Source: Burkholderia multivorans ATCC BAA-247 (GTDB taxonomy: Bacteria; Pseudomonadota; Gammaproteobacteria; Burkholderiales; Burkholderiaceae). From it: a stretch of 64,000 nucleotides of DNA. Where the stretch lies: assembly GCF_000959525.1 (NCBI RefSeq), contig NZ_CP009832.1, positions 2,852,001 through 2,916,000 on the forward strand. Direction: 5' to 3'. Shown one piece after another: positions 52,183-57,709 of this stretch (positions are counted from its first letter, which is position 1; each line of letters starts with the position of its first letter). Both the position numbers and the translations under genes were made by a program. The notes beneath the pieces were generated by a model. It was given only the letters and a program-made list of their open reading frames with translations. It did no database searches and was not told where the DNA came from.

Positions 52183-52243
52183 GCGGGGCGTCTCCTCGAG
52201 AACGGATGGGTCCGCACAGTATCGAAGTGCAGACCATTCTCGG

Positions 52244-52271
52244 ATACTGTATTTTTGGCGAAAACCCATAC
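52244..52271. promoter_or_regulatory. Candidate LysR operator in mdlC-lysR spacer
   Basis: ATACTGTAT (52244-52252) is a 4-1-4 palindrome. GTAT (52249-52252) is also mirrored by ATAC at 52268-52271 around a TTTTTGGCGAAAA core. This gives T-N11-A style dyads typical of LysR-type sites, in the 98-bp spacer. Confidence 0.45.
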
Positions 52272-52280
52272 CGTTTGCGC

Positions 52281-53192
52281 ATGACTTTCGACCTCCGCCA
52301 GCTTCGCGCCTTCACCACGATCGTCGCGTGCGGCAGCCTCGGCCGCGCGGCCGACGCGCTGCACGTCACGCAGCCCGCGCTGTCGCGCATCCTGAAGCGT
52401 CTCGAGGACCAGGTCGGCGCGCCGCTGTTCGAGCGCCACTCGAAAGGCGTGCAGCTCACCGCGTTCGGCGAAGCGCTGCTGCCGCATGCGACGCTGCTGC
52501 AGCACGAGGCCGAACACGCGCGCGAGGAGCTCGACGCGATGCGCGGCCTGGCGAAGGGCACGATCAAGGTCGGTGCGGTCGGCAGCATCGCGAGCCTCGT
52601 GTTGCCGATCGCGATCGGCCGCGTGCTCGATCGCTGGCCGAACCTGCGCGTCGAGATTCTCGAAGGCGTATGGGACCGGCTCGCCGAAGGGCTCTGCAAG
52701 CACGAGATCGACCTCGCGCTGTCCGCGCAGGCGCCCGACACCGACGAGATCGTCGCGATTCCCGAATGCCGGTGGACCGATCGCAGCCATATCGTTGCCG
52801 CGCCGCACCATCCGCTGCGCGCGCTCGGCCGGCCGCCGACGCTCGCCGACACGCTGCGCGCACGCTGGGCGCTGCCGCCGCGCGGCACCGCGCCGTTCGA
52901 CCAGGTGCGCACGACCTTCGATTCGCATGGCTTGCCGCTGCCCGACATCGCGGTCGAGACGCGTTCGGTCACGACGCTGAAGAGCCTCGTCGCGCATGCG
53001 GGTTTCCTGTCGTGGATGCCGGAGCCGATGTTCGGCGCCGAGCAGCGCGCGGGCACGATCGACGTGCTGCCGGTGCGCAACGCGCTCGCGCGGCGCATGC
53101 TGACCGCGTTCCGACGCCGTCACGGGATCCTGCCGGGGCCTGCAGCCAAGCTGCTCGAGGAACTCGTCGCGCTAACGCGCGAAGGCGGCTGA
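52281..53192 (+). CDS. LysR-type regulator, divergent from mdlC
   Basis: 303 residues. LysR winged helix at 1-60 (LRQLRAFTTIVACGSLGRAADALHVTQPALSRIL split over this region) and a substrate-binding domain from about 90. Position suggests it activates the benzoylformate/aldehyde dehydrogenase operon in response to an aromatic acid. ATG 52281 is 98 bp from the mdlC start; CATACCGTTTGCGC precedes it, with no strong ribosome binding site. Confidence 0.9.
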   Translation: MTFDLRQLRAFTTIVACGSLGRAADALHVTQPALSRILKRLEDQVGAPLFERHSKGVQLTAFGEALLPHATLLQHEAEHAREELDAMRGLAKGTIKVGAVGSIASLVLPIAIGRVLDRWPNLRVEILEGVWDRLAEGLCKHEIDLALSAQAPDTDEIVAIPECRWTDRSHIVAAPHHPLRALGRPPTLADTLRARWALPPRGTAPFDQVRTTFDSHGLPLPDIAVETRSVTTLKSLVAHAGFLSWMPEPMFGAEQRAGTIDVLPVRNALARRMLTAFRRRHGILPGPAAKLLEELVALTREGG

Positions 53193-53258
53193 TCCGAGCC
53201 ATCGCACGGCGCCGGAGGCCTCCGGTGCGGCGCACCATCGAAATGCCAGGTTGACGCC

Positions 53259-53313
53259 TTGACTTTCATTCGGCCGAATACGATCATTCGCTCACGTAAC
53301 GAGCAAATGATCG
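53259..53313 (+). promoter_or_regulatory. dalD promoter with overlapping operator
   Basis: TTGACT (53259-53264) and GATCAT (53282-53287) are 17 bp apart. A 13-bp inverted repeat with one mismatch, CGATCATTCGCTC (53281-53293) and GAGCAAATGATCG (53301-53313) around a 7-bp centre, covers the -10 box and predicted start site. This is the geometry of a repressor site, probably for the SorC-type regulator at 56756. The transcript leader would be about 360 nt. Confidence 0.65.
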
Positions 53314-53413
53314 TGCCGACGTACCGCCACGCCGCGACGCCCCGAGCCAACGCCGAACGCGGCGGCGTGCGCGCCGACGCGCGGACCGCGGCCGGTCCGT
53401 AGAGCAACGACGC

Positions 53414-53648
53414 CCTGGGGAAGCACTGAAGCGCCAGCCGAGGCCGACCGCGAAGCACGGAGCTCCGGTAAGCGCTAAAGCGCAAACGGGAGCCGACCGC
53501 GAAGCATGGGGCTCCGGCAAGCGCTGAAGTGCTAATCGGAGCCGACCGCGAAGCATGGGGCTCCGGCAAGCGCTGAAGCGCTAACCGGAGCCGACCGCGA
53601 AGCATGGGGCCCCGGTAAGCGCTGAAGCGCTAACCGGGGCCGACAGGA
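53414..53648 (+). repeat. 49-bp tandem repeat array forming hairpins
   Basis: Units begin at 53414 (degenerate), 53463, 53512, 53561 and 53610 (last one incomplete), each exactly 49 bp. A typical unit folds as GGCTCCGG-ca-AGCGC-tgaa-GCGCT-aa-CCGGAGCC, joined by a conserved linker GACCGCGAAGCATGG. In the last unit the stem is CCCCGG/CCGGGG instead of CTCCGG/CCGGAG, a paired change. The array lies in the predicted dalD leader and ends three to four bases before its AGGAG site. The minus strand is open in several frames but this follows from composition. Confidence 0.9.
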
Positions 53649-53656
53649 GACACCGG

Positions 53657-55051
53657 ATGACCGAATCGCCCTCCGCCCGCACGCCCGTGCTGCTGCACAT
53701 CGGCGCGGGCTCGTTTCACCGCGCACATCAGGCGTGGTATCTGCATCGCGTCAACGAAGCCGTGCCGGCCGACCAGCGCTGGTCGCTCGTCGTCGGCAAC
53801 ATCCGCGACGACATGCGCGCCACGATGGACGCACTCGCCGCGCAGCACGGCGTCTACACGCTCGAGACCGTCACGCCGCAAGGCGAGCGCGAATACGAGA
53901 CGATCCGCGCGATCGCGCGCGTGCTGCCGTGGTCGATCGATCTCGCCGCGCTGATCGACGCCGGCGCCGATCCGGCCTGCCGGATCGTGTCGTTCACCGT
54001 CACCGAAGGCGGCTACTACCTCGACGAACACAACCGGCTCGACGTCGCGAACGCCGATCTCGCGGCCGACCTGCAGGGCGCGCGCACGACGCTCTACGGC
54101 GCGCTCGCCGCGCTGCTGGCCGAACGCATGCGGCGCGGCGCGGGTGCCCTCACGCTGCAGAGCTGCGACAACCTGCGCAGCAACGGCGCGCGCTTTCGCG
54201 CGGGCATGCGCGAGTTTCTCGAACGCCGCGGGCAGACCGACGTGCTCGCGTGGTTCGATGCGAACGTCGCATGCCCGAGCGCGATGGTCGATCGCATCAC
54301 GCCGCGTCCGACCGCCGACGTGCGCGAACGCGTGCGCGCGGCCACCGGCATCGACGACGCATGCCCGGTGATGGGCGAATCGTTCATCCAGTGGGTCATC
54401 GAGGACCGCTTCGCGGCCGGCCGGCCGCGCTGGGAGCTGGCCGGCGCCGAACTGGTCGACGACGTGCATCCGTACGAGGAAGCGAAGATCCGCATTCTCA
54501 ACGCGACGCACAGCTGCATCGCGTGGGCCGGCACGCTCGCAGGCCACACGTACATCCACGAAGGCACGCACGACGCGTCGATCCGCCGCTTCGCGCACGA
54601 CTACGTGACGCAGGACGTGATCCCGTGCCTCACGCCGAGCCCGCTCGATCTCGCGCGCTACCGCGACGTCGTGCTCGAGCGCTTCGGCAACCCGTACGTG
54701 CTGGACACGAACCAGCGCGTCGCGGCAGACGGCTTCTCGAAGATTCCCGGCTTCATCGCGCCCACGCTCGCCGAATCGTTCGCGCGCGGCGCAACGCCGG
54801 TCGCGACGGCCGTGCTGCCCGCGCTGTTCCTGCGCTTTCTCGAACGCTGGGCGCGCGGCGCGCTGCCATACACGTACCAGGACGGCGTGATGGACGACGG
54901 CGCCGCGCGCGCGATCGTCGGCGCCGCCGATCCGGTCGCCGCGCTCGCCGCGAGCCGCGCGCTGTGGGGCTCGATGGCCGGCAGCGCAGCGCTGAGCGAT
55001 GCGCTGCGCGCGGGGCTCGCGCGCGTCGACGCGTGGCTCGCCGCGCGCTGA
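53657..55051 (+). CDS. dalD: D-arabinitol 4-dehydrogenase (mannitol dehydrogenase family)
   Basis: 464 residues. Polyol-specific long-chain dehydrogenase, probably NAD-dependent oxidation of D-arabinitol to D-xylulose. The catalytic K-x4-N-x2-H set is Lys277, Asn282, His285 in EEAKIRILNATHS. The N-terminal LHIGAGSFHRAHQAWYLH, VTEGGYYLDEHNRLDVANADLAADLQG and NQRVAADGFSKIP closely follow Klebsiella DalD; mannitol 2-dehydrogenase is the nearest alternative. AGGAG (53645-53649) precedes the ATG. First gene of dalD-xylB-regulator; the enzyme fits the kinase that follows. Confidence 0.88.
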   Translation: MTESPSARTPVLLHIGAGSFHRAHQAWYLHRVNEAVPADQRWSLVVGNIRDDMRATMDALAAQHGVYTLETVTPQGEREYETIRAIARVLPWSIDLAALIDAGADPACRIVSFTVTEGGYYLDEHNRLDVANADLAADLQGARTTLYGALAALLAERMRRGAGALTLQSCDNLRSNGARFRAGMREFLERRGQTDVLAWFDANVACPSAMVDRITPRPTADVRERVRAATGIDDACPVMGESFIQWVIEDRFAAGRPRWELAGAELVDDVHPYEEAKIRILNATHSCIAWAGTLAGHTYIHEGTHDASIRRFAHDYVTQDVIPCLTPSPLDLARYRDVVLERFGNPYVLDTNQRVAADGFSKIPGFIAPTLAESFARGATPVATAVLPALFLRFLERWARGALPYTYQDGVMDDGAARAIVGAADPVAALAASRALWGSMAGSAALSDALRAGLARVDAWLAAR

Positions 55052-55170: not shown

Positions 55171-56652
55171 ATGTATCTCGGCATCGACCTCGGCACTTCG
55201 GAAGTGAAAGTGCTGCTGCTGGCCCCGGACGGCTCGGTCGTCGGCACGGCCGGCACGCCGTTCACCGTCTCGCGGCCGTATCCGCGCTGGGCCGAGCAGC
55301 ATCCGGAAGACTGGTGGCAAGGCACGCTGGCGGCACTCGCGACGCTGCGCGAACGGCATCCGGACGCATTCGTGCAGGTGCGCGGCATCGGCCTGTCCGG
55401 CCAGATGCACGGCGCGGTGCTGCTCGGGCGCGACGATCGCGTGCTGCGTCCGGCGATCCTCTGGAACGACATGCGCAGCGCCGACGAATGCGCGCTGCTC
55501 ACCGAGCGCGCCCCCGATCTGCATGCGCTCGCCGGCAATCTCGCGATGCCCGGATTCACCGCGCCGAAGCTGCTCTGGGTCGCGAAGCACGAACCGCAGG
55601 TATTCGCGGCGACGGCATGCGTGCTGATGCCGAAGGACTACCTGCGATTCCGGCTGACCGGCGCGAAGGTGTCCGATCCGTCCGACGCGGCCGGCACGCT
55701 GTGGCTCGACGTCGCGCGCCGCGACTGGTCCGACGCGCTGCTCGCCGCGTGCGACATGACGCGCGACCAGATGCCGCGCATCGTCGAAGGCAATGCGCCG
55801 TCCGGCACGCTGCGCGCGGACGTCGCACGCGCGCTCGGGCTGTCCGAGGCGGTCGTCGTCGCGGGCGGCGGCGGCGACAACGCGACGAGCGCGCTCGGCA
55901 TCGGCGCGATCCATGCGGGCGACGGCTTCGTGTCGCTCGGCACGTCGGGCGTGCTGAGCGTCGTCGGCGACCGCTTCATGCCGAACCCCGCCTCGGCCGT
56001 GCACGCGTTCTGCCATGCGATCCCCGATCGCTGGCAGTTGATGAGCGTCGTGCTGTCGGCCGCGAGCTGCCTGCGCTGGGTCTGCAAGCTGACCGGCACC
56101 GACGAGCCCACGCTGCTCGCCGAAGTCGAAGCGCTCGACGCGGGCGCACTCGCGACCGCGCCGCTGTTCCTGCCGTACCTGTCCGGCGAGCGCACGCCGC
56201 ACAACGATCCGTATGCGCAAGGTGTGTTCTTCGGAATGACGCATGCGACCGAGCGCGCGCATCTCGGCTATGCGGTGCTCGAAGGCGTGACGCTCGGCCT
56301 CGCGGACGGCCTCGACGCGCTGCATGCGGCCGGCGTCGAAACCGATCGGCTGTCGCTGATCGGCGGCGGCGCGCGCAGCGCGTTCTGGGCGCAGCTGATC
56401 GCCGATGCACTCAACGTCCGCACGCGCCGGCACGGCGGCGGCGAGACGGGCGCCGCGCTCGGCGCGGCACGGCTCGGCTGGCTCGCGGTCGGCGCCGATC
56501 CCGAGGCTGTACTGACCAAGCCGCCGGTGCGCGCCGACTACACGCCGAACGCCGCGCGTCACGCGCTGCTGCGCGAGCGCCTCGATGCGTTTCGCGCGCT
56601 GTACCGTCACGTGCGTCCGCTTTACGAACCGTCGCGCACGCGTCTCGCGTGA
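55171..56652 (+). CDS. xylB: Xylulokinase
   Basis: 493 residues. FGGY-family kinase phosphorylating D-xylulose to xylulose 5-phosphate for the pentose phosphate pathway. Motifs are MYLGIDLGTSEVKVLLL (phosphate 1), GIGLSGQMHG, LWNDMRSADEC with the catalytic-type Asp, GGGGDNATSALGIG and LIGGGARSAFWAQLIADAL (FGGY signature). It uses the product predicted for DalD, so the two genes form a complete D-arabinitol route. Confidence 0.94.
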   Translation: MYLGIDLGTSEVKVLLLAPDGSVVGTAGTPFTVSRPYPRWAEQHPEDWWQGTLAALATLRERHPDAFVQVRGIGLSGQMHGAVLLGRDDRVLRPAILWNDMRSADECALLTERAPDLHALAGNLAMPGFTAPKLLWVAKHEPQVFAATACVLMPKDYLRFRLTGAKVSDPSDAAGTLWLDVARRDWSDALLAACDMTRDQMPRIVEGNAPSGTLRADVARALGLSEAVVVAGGGGDNATSALGIGAIHAGDGFVSLGTSGVLSVVGDRFMPNPASAVHAFCHAIPDRWQLMSVVLSAASCLRWVCKLTGTDEPTLLAEVEALDAGALATAPLFLPYLSGERTPHNDPYAQGVFFGMTHATERAHLGYAVLEGVTLGLADGLDALHAAGVETDRLSLIGGGARSAFWAQLIADALNVRTRRHGGGETGAALGAARLGWLAVGADPEAVLTKPPVRADYTPNAARHALLRERLDAFRALYRHVRPLYEPSRTRLA

Positions 56653-56755
56653 GCGGCCGCTGCCGCGCGGGTGCCGAACGGCGGCCCGCGCCGCATGCGG
56701 TACAGTGGATCCCGTTGCGCCGCACCGCCGGCCCGCTCCGAACCGAATCGCTATC

Positions 56756-57709
56756 GTGTCCAAGTCTTCAGAAAAACTCGATCTCGCCACGCGCGCCGCG
56801 TGGCTCTATTACGTCGCGGGCGACACGCAGAACGAAATTGCCGAGAAGCTGCAGGTGTCGCGCCCGGTCGCGCAGCGCCTCGTCGCCTTCGCGATCGAGA
56901 AGAACCTGATTCGCGTGCGCGTCGATCACCAATTGGCCGACTGCCTCGATCTCGGTGCGCAGTTGTCGAAGCGCTACGGGCTCTCGATGTGCGAAGTCGT
57001 GCCGGTCGATGCCGACGCGCCCGATGCGATCGACCGCAAGCTCGCGGTCGCCGGTGCGCAGGTCATGGAACGCTATCTGAGCGAGACGCGGCCGATGGTG
57101 ATCGCGGTCAGCAGCGGCCGGACGCTGAAGGCGGCCGTCGCGCAGATCGCGCAGATCGATCGCCCGCAGCACCGGCTCGTGTCGATGGTCGGCGCGATCG
57201 CGGCCGACGGCTCGTCGAACCGCTACGACGTCGCGCAGTACATCTCCGAGAAGACGGGCGGCAAGCACTTCCTGCTGCCCGCCCCGCTGTTCGCCGACAG
57301 CGACGCCGAGCGCGCGCAGTGGTGCAATCACCGGCTCTACCGGATCGTCGACGCGCTGTCCGCGGAAGCCGACGTCGCGTTCGTCGGCGTCGGCAACATC
57401 GGCCCGCACTGCCCGCTGTACGAAGACGGCTTCATCACCGAGCAGGAACGCGACGAGATGATCGCGCGCGGCGCGGTCGCCGAACTGCTCGGTGTACCGA
57501 TCGATGCTCAGGGCCGGCTCGTCGACGTGTCGACGAGCGCGCGCGTGACGAGCGTGCCGCTCGAGACGCCGCCCAAGCGCCCGACGATCGCGTTCGCGGG
57601 CGGGCCGAAAAAGCGCGACGCGGTGATCGCCGCGCTGCGCGGCGGCTGGGTGTCGGGGCTCGTGACGGACGAGACCTGCGCGCGCGCGGCGCTCGACGCG
57701 ACGCTCTGA
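56756..57709 (+). CDS. SorC/DeoR-type sugar-binding transcriptional regulator
   Basis: 317 residues from a GTG at 56756. N-terminal helix-turn-helix (AAWLYYVAGDTQNEIAEKL, then VSRPVAQRLV) and a SorC effector domain (about 60-315) with VIAVSSGRTLKAAV, DVAFVGVGNIG, GAVAELLG and AFAGGPKKRDAVIAALRGG. Such proteins bind phosphorylated sugars. Position matches DalR-like regulators of polyol operons. It is the probable ligand of the inverted repeat at 53281-53313. TACAGT at 56701 may be an own -10 box. Confidence 0.9.
   Translation: MSKSSEKLDLATRAAWLYYVAGDTQNEIAEKLQVSRPVAQRLVAFAIEKNLIRVRVDHQLADCLDLGAQLSKRYGLSMCEVVPVDADAPDAIDRKLAVAGAQVMERYLSETRPMVIAVSSGRTLKAAVAQIAQIDRPQHRLVSMVGAIAADGSSNRYDVAQYISEKTGGKHFLLPAPLFADSDAERAQWCNHRLYRIVDALSAEADVAFVGVGNIGPHCPLYEDGFITEQERDEMIARGAVAELLGVPIDAQGRLVDVSTSARVTSVPLETPPKRPTIAFAGGPKKRDAVIAALRGGWVSGLVTDETCARAALDATL

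Follow-up and report, generated by a model that had tools for sequence, protein, structure and literature searches.

Organization of the dalD-like operon and its leader

The analyzed window, i.e., the whole stretch of 64,000 nucleotides from the genome of Burkholderia multivorans ATCC BAA-247 (NZ_CP009832.1, positions 2,852,001 to 2,916,000), contains a series of plus-strand genes around a gene of the mannitol dehydrogenase family (dalD-like, 53657..55051, Pfam PF01232 and PF08125), whose ATG is located at 53657. This gene is followed by an FGGY carbohydrate kinase (55171..56652, PF00370 and PF02782) and by a gene with a "putative sugar-binding domain" (56585..57709, start uncertain, PF04198), which we take to be a SorC-type regulator. 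A LysR-family regulator is located upstream (52206..53192, PF00126 and PF03466). In front of the dalD-like gene we predict a sigma70-type promoter (TTGACT-17-GATCAT, 53259..53287, plus strand), which agrees with the consensus at 9 of 12 positions, with 0.1 such matches expected, and a very similar sequence is present in most of the 30 orthologous dalD leaders printed for comparison. The predicted promoter is overlapped by a 14-nucleotide inverted repeat (ACGATCATTCGCTC/GAGCAAATGATCGT, 53280..53314), which is also found in orthologues without the array described below and is likely the operator of the sugar-alcohol operon. Based on the promoter-like sequence, a leader of about 360 nucleotides is plausible for the dalD-like transcript, in line with the first-pass annotation, which had placed the array in a leader of this length. 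The Shine-Dalgarno sequence AGGAG is located at 53645..53649 (plus strand), and the array-less orthologues have a Shine-Dalgarno stretch as well (ACAGGAGACACCGG).

Most of the predicted leader is occupied by a tandem array. Using Tandem Repeats Finder it was detected at 53421-53644 with a period of 49, 4.6 copies, 88% matches, no indels and a score of 336, which makes it the strongest tandem repeat in the window by far (the runner-up scored 103). In detail, the array consists of four good 49-bp units and a degenerate one, which together cover 53408-53644 on the plus strand. Unit 1 (CGACGCCCTGGGG-AAGCACTGAAGCGCC...CGAC, 53408..53448) is degenerate and was recognized by eye. The covariance model, which was built from 11 units with dalD units 2 to 5 among them, detected unit 2 (53445..53497, linker, hairpin and CGAC) with 66.4 bits, unit 3 (53494..53546) with 71.7 bits, unit 4 (53543..53595) with 78.9 bits and unit 5 (53592..53644) with 80.2 bits. 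The hairpin of unit 5 ends 3 nucleotides 5' of the Shine-Dalgarno sequence. The units read CGACCGCGAAGCATGG-[34-nt palindrome], and the linker between the hairpins is 15 nucleotides long (GACCGCGAAGCATGG). The stem is composed of an outer part of 8-9 bp, an A·A mismatch and an inner part of 5 bp, and it is closed by a TGAA or TAAA loop (TNAA). Folding of the array region was better than all 200 shuffled sequences on either strand (z = -6.0 for the plus and -6.8 for the minus strand). The repeat finder, the covariance model and the folding thus bear out the unit anatomy and the exact 49-bp period that had been noticed at first sight. A search against Rfam with 52800-54300 of the window returned MIR1437 as the sole match, at 27.7 bits and far below the gathering score of 168, and the same search with six array-bearing loci gave nothing but a tRNA. 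No intrinsic terminator or attenuator was found at 53190-53680.

The unit is dispersed in Burkholderia sensu lato

A BLASTN search identified six places in the B. multivorans genome, and the dalD leader is one of them. The covariance model yielded 19 unit matches at E<0.02 in the same genome, which belong to dalD, to seven other places (at two of these the match is weak, with 37.3 and 34.0 bits) and to two native hairpins in rRNA spacers. Each of these two related hairpins occupies the 16S-23S spacer of one of the two rRNA operons seen (C1:207031-207083 and C3:611344-611396, 47.1 and 45.7 bits), and similar hairpins were noticed by eye near the apparent 3' end of the 23S gene in other genomes (L154, L162, L181, L187 and L233). 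An origin of the element from the rRNA spacer is possible.

At the level of the genus, all 37 genomes contain units, with 4 to 57 units each (covariance model, E<=0.001), and with this model no unit was found in 24 genomes that belong to the same order but to different families. An exact 20-nucleotide core pattern matched in at least 120 sequence stretches. Among the 80 matches listed with names, 76 belong to Burkholderia, Paraburkholderia, Caballeronia or Trinickia, and the remaining four to Thiobacillus, Selenomonas and, twice, Lacticaseibacillus. We do not regard these four as copies of the element, as they are devoid of the GCATGG and GACA flanks and look like chance matches or unrelated palindromes. 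The Lacticaseibacillus pantheris contigs (L160 and L194) and L202 share another common context, also without the flanks of the element, and probably represent an unrelated repeat. None of 50,697 phage records matched in a search for a phage origin, and a single exact match of the core pattern was found in viral contigs.

The distribution among dalD orthologues is patchy. We read the leaders of 30 of the 58 genomes with an orthologue and detected arrays in two of them with the covariance model, and one more leader contains a degenerate unit, as judged by eye. In addition, a unit adjoins dalD in genome G009, as judged from the coordinates of the unit and gene matches. The other 27 of the 30 leaders are devoid of the unit and most of them have kept the promoter-like sequence and the inverted repeat. 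The first-pass annotation had interpreted the array as an element of the dalD leader, and a dedicated regulatory leader would fit the large share of the predicted leader that is taken up by the array and its position 3' of the promoter-like and operator-like sequences. However, the same unit precedes many unrelated genes. We therefore consider a dedicated leader to be a scarcely credible explanation and have rejected a riboregulator specific for dalD, in view of the dispersal of the unit and its absence from the majority of the dalD orthologues read. A scatter of the unit over unrelated gaps of the genome had been named beforehand as a result that would refute a leader element. The scatter is indeed found, but the gaps are not unrelated, as the units are located at the 5' edge of Shine-Dalgarno sequences and in sense orientation.

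Units abut Shine-Dalgarno sequences in sense orientation

To describe this position we evaluated the at least 120 loci selected by the core pattern, which gave 128 arrays with 230 units and still include the four matches outside of Burkholderia sensu lato. Among these pattern-selected loci, the downstream gene is on the same strand in 84 of the 101 arrays with called genes on both sides, and the distance between hairpin and start codon is 13-22 nucleotides in 67 of 93 cases. The upstream gene also points in the same direction in 53 of the 101 arrays and therefore positions inside operons are likely. Neighboring units were found in the same direction in 102 pairs and in opposite direction in none, with a spacing of mostly 45-55 bp. 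If the hairpin is required to be preceded by ATGG or followed by GAC, 114 of the 128 arrays remain, and 80 of these are in front of same-strand genes. Of the 80, 76 have GACA directly 3' of the hairpin, and in 57 AGGAG starts 0 to 2 nucleotides past the GAC. The motif AGGAG occurs in 72% of 54 array leaders and in 12.5% of 608 others, a contrast that is probably exaggerated since the gene starts are crude: they were called from codon scores with a bonus for Shine-Dalgarno sequences and some of them are wrong.

With the aim of less pattern bias, we also inspected 70 sites, which are the listed rows of 162 units in three complete unit-rich genomes. At 65 of these 70 listed sites the downstream gene is on the same strand, and at 59 a Shine-Dalgarno sequence and a start codon follow within 24 nucleotides after the unit. 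The 11 listed sites without this arrangement include, by eye, sites beside tRNA genes or terminator-like repeats and units followed by a degenerate unit. Overall, there is a strong association of the unit with the 5' edge of Shine-Dalgarno sequences, with the hairpin in sense orientation and with downstream genes that are unrelated to each other.

The downstream genes are diverse: 82 downstream proteins of the pattern-selected loci fall into 62 clusters. Judged from the protein starts, they presumably include quinolinate synthase, the epsilon and gamma subunits of ATP synthase, LpxD and enoyl-ACP reductase, and we assume that HisC, CysN, transporters and regulators are among the others. Some filled sites are common to different genera, namely atpG, atpC and a glycosyltransferase-like gene.

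Filled and empty leaders

Orthologous leaders differ by one period of 48-50 bp set directly against AAGGAG. In a pair of atpG leaders from the same genus, GATCAAGGAG in one genome compares with GATC-[48 bp]-AAGGAG in the other, and in a second atpG pair CTTCGATCA-AGGAG compares with a copy carrying an insert of 49-50 bp. None of the filled and empty pairs read has a target duplication of more than 1-2 nucleotides. Within the family, 12 of 70 atpG loci read contain a unit (113 genomes with a match). For two further sites of the B. multivorans genome, 3 of 30 and 4 of 30 orthologous leaders are filled, with leaders read from 30 of 56 and 30 of 61 genomes with a match. These counts were obtained with the covariance model, which drops overlapping neighbors so that tandem units are undercounted, and which also gave one weak off-leader match at L329; an automatic unit counter was set aside, as it gave doubtful matches in dalD leaders (L257, L258 and L266) and missed units at atpG.

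The same picture emerged for an rRNA operon. One 16S-23S spacer of the B. multivorans genome contains a unit 5' of the sequence GAGACAG and another rRNA operon is without it. This site is not translated and therefore the preference is at least partly one for sequence and not for gene starts.

Copy number varies even between strains. In the leader of a regulator gene the genome analyzed here has two units and B. multivorans 2023CK-01339 has seven, and the unusual linker is the same in both. This leader is without units in B. arboris, B. cenocepacia and B. stagnalis. Apparently the same regulator gene has units in genomes G008 and G024, which suggests that units can be gained as well as lost. 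A further site has three units (by eye) in each of the two B. multivorans strains, but from one strain to the other both stem arms have changed in concert. Taken together, units are present or absent between otherwise matching leaders, against the 5' edge of the purine-rich (A)AGGAG, with fixed orientation toward the gene and with a strain-variable copy number at one site.

We infer the direction from empty to filled from these sequence comparisons, and precise loss is the alternative. Given that there are filled sites common to genera as well as pristine empty sites within the genus, a part of the empty states may indeed go back to precise losses. Moreover, the filled sites shared between genera may be old insertions that selection has retained and not recent ones, which would argue against a mobile element.

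Two further observations concern the structure of the arrays. In the atpC leader of genome G006 (L344, C1:127450-128100) two types of unit, A and B, alternate and form a higher-order repeat of about 92 bp. At five loci (L161, L169, L210, L221 and L236) the unit is followed by much the same partner sequence (GACAGCGAACGATAGTGAGCGTGGGGG, with few changes), perhaps as part of a larger composite repeat.

Conservation of the palindrome and effects at the RNA level

The palindrome is kept although its sequence varies. In 298 distinct units, for which 5 or more of the 9 pairs of the outer stem and a 4-nucleotide TNAA loop were required, we counted 95 different left arms, and 2477 of 2682 cells of the outer stem are Watson-Crick pairs, compared with a mean of 1905 and a maximum of 1950 if the arms are shuffled among the units. 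The first stem pair is G-C in 289 of the 298 units. This conservation fits a hairpin-recognizing mobility, a function of the RNA or correction by template switching.

A function of the RNA would imply that the unit is a clade-wide cis-acting element, in which the hairpin next to the Shine-Dalgarno sequence is selected as insulator that holds this sequence open, as mRNA stabilizer or as a place where an RNA-binding protein or a small RNA can dock. The constant strand and spacing relative to the start codon, the outer stems that vary in sequence and yet remain paired, and the fact that some of the same genes are filled across genera are all in line with such a role. Folding predictions point in the same direction, as the Shine-Dalgarno sequence is slightly more unpaired with the native than with shuffled upstream sequence (0.514 versus 0.454; seen in 39 of 59 leaders; p=0.015 in a Wilcoxon test); the predicted effect is small and has the direction expected for an insulator. 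If pairing in the mRNA were under selection, however, G·U pairs should be tolerated better than A·C mismatches in the mRNA-sense stem, and they are not in excess (61 versus 80 in the outer and 18 versus 50 in the inner stem), with the limitation that these cells are not independent because the units share ancestry. The diversity of the downstream genes, whose 82 proteins form 62 clusters, the patchy presence among orthologues, the unit in the rRNA spacer and the units that adjoin tRNA genes and terminator-like sequences, as judged by eye, also speak against a cis-acting RNA as the primary identity of the unit, which we consider unlikely.

Apart from the stem, the units contain an AUG-N9-UAA arrangement, as in 53592-53644: a start-like triplet is present in 288 of the 298 units (272 ATG, 15 GTG and 1 TTG) and a stop follows after exactly four codons in 266. 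A Shine-Dalgarno-like motif upstream of these mini-ORFs was found in only six units.

Relation to known repeats and search for a mobilizing enzyme

The closest formal similarity is to the CGTC-tagged REPs, which are characterized by a CGTC tag (TGTC in many of them), mostly a CCA tail, loops of 4-5 nucleotides and the lack of a dedicated transposase, and which are located mainly downstream of coding regions according to the sections of the description available (Di Nocera et al., 2013; PMC3733652). Read opposite to the gene strand, the unit has the same order of TGTC, hairpin and CCA(TGC) (PMC3733652). The unpaired tag is represented by GACA/TGTC in the 76 of 80 arrays mentioned above and stems perhaps partly from the target. 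The CCA tail corresponds to the TGG directly before the hairpin (per-base frequencies of 0.90, 0.96 and 0.99 in the 80 arrays), and the loop of four is short as well, but the units had been selected by a 4-nucleotide TNAA loop. In contrast to the CGTC-tagged REPs as far as they are described there (PMC3733652), the stem of the unit is interrupted (9+5 bp versus 8-9 bp), its first pair is G-C where the REPs usually have A-T pairs, the units form same-direction tandem arrays instead of head-to-head dimers, and they are located just 5' of start codons and not near the 3' ends of genes. A word count for that paper gave no occurrence of Burkholderia (PMC3733652). As stem form, type of dimer and genomic address do not match, we did not file the element as a CGTC-tagged REP.

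With the GTAG REPs and BIMEs the unit shares that it is a dispersed, extragenic, imperfect palindrome and non-autonomous; it differs by the missing GTAG tag and by the lack of any association with a RAYT (REP-associated tyrosine transposase) in our searches. A classical REP mobilized by a resident RAYT would account for a short imperfect palindrome with a conserved unpaired tag, for the strand specificity and for the absence of a clear target duplication. Yet, in addition to the missing tag and the address in 5' leaders instead of 3' ends, no Y1 transposase (PF01797) was found at E<=1e-5 in the genome analyzed here (G000) or in the unit-rich genomes G006, G008 and G024. The family is present in 3 of 12 complete genomes of the genus and in 45 of 150 genomes of the family, and the stretches around the gene at 33 Y1 loci (of 50 Y1 places) contain no convincing unit, the best match having 16.6 bits and an E-value of 0.55. 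A resident RAYT or IS200 is therefore not supported by the Y1 searches and mobilization by a resident RAYT seems very improbable. No mobilizing enzyme was found in a transposase search that covered the Y1 family (PF01797) alone.

IS200/IS605-type elements insert strand-specifically beside a short target, have a hairpin near the end and do not duplicate the target, and the unit would resemble them in these points. The unit differs from them by its size of 48-50 bp and by the fact that no transposase gene was identified.

The core of the unit has been listed in a different context. In the accessible part of a published compilation, orphan "CRISPR" repeats of P. terrae strains contain the core and one of P. 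oxyphila contains a part of it (PMC5968390). The array in the window is a contiguous tandem of hairpins with a 49-bp period and conserved 15-nucleotide linkers, which is unlike a CRISPR array, and an orphan CRISPR was rejected as its identity because there are no spacers. For the same reason we take the CRISPR label on the core to be a misannotation, a judgment derived from the array in the window and not from the P. terrae and P. oxyphila loci. Otherwise, no description of the element was found in the openly licensed literature of PubMed Central, where searches were directed at the core sequence as well as at Burkholderia repeats of the palindromic, leader or tandem kind, and the accessible part of a paper on small RNAs of B. 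cenocepacia (PMC5688073) does not mention such a repeat. The first impression of an undescribed form is in agreement with this literature, where we came across the core only among the orphan CRISPR repeats in the available portion of PMC5968390.

A palindromic element in 5' leaders

The unit is not a motif of the dalD leader but a clade-wide palindromic element that abuts Shine-Dalgarno sequences and expands in tandem. It comprises 48-50 bp with GCNNNGCATGG, an imperfect palindrome of 34 nucleotides and GAC. In our opinion the array in front of the dalD-like gene is probably a local tandem expansion of this dispersed, non-autonomous element of Burkholderia sensu lato. We read the element as REP-like, with hallmarks of the CGTC/TGTC-tagged REPs but with the opposite address, in 5' leaders and not at 3' ends. 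The opposite strand reads CTCCT(N)TGTC-hairpin-CCATGC, which to us looks like a single-stranded-DNA element of the IS200/REP type with the target next to one end. Such an element would have spread as a short palindromic mobile sequence whose target includes the Shine-Dalgarno motif, and arrays would grow afterwards through tandem duplication. As a by-product, each insertion would place a stable hairpin just 5' of a ribosome-binding site, which folding predicts to be left slightly more open than with shuffled upstream sequence. A putative regulatory effect of the units is plausible, and any effect on dalD would be a quantitative tuning of translation or of mRNA stability and not a dedicated sugar-alcohol switch. 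That units bind a regulatory RNA or protein, or that their copy number sets expression, as the first-pass annotation had proposed, may be considered with reserve, as the support for it is weak and indirect.

A more far-reaching interpretation, which we put forward tentatively and with considerable doubt, is that the element targets ribosome-binding sites as such and represents a self-spreading module of post-transcriptional tuning, with tandem expansion as a strain-variable dosage. Insertion would then set a hairpin with its AUG-N9-UAA mini-ORF against the Shine-Dalgarno sequence in the right orientation.

An element that is adjacent to Shine-Dalgarno sequences, has one orientation and a strain-variable copy number and is found in at least four named genera supplies leader variants that have arisen in nature. 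With these it becomes testable whether a mobile repeat can alter translation while the promoters stay as they are, and by what means a short element could choose ribosome-binding sites. Furthermore, it may account for some of the "orphan CRISPR" calls in Paraburkholderia.
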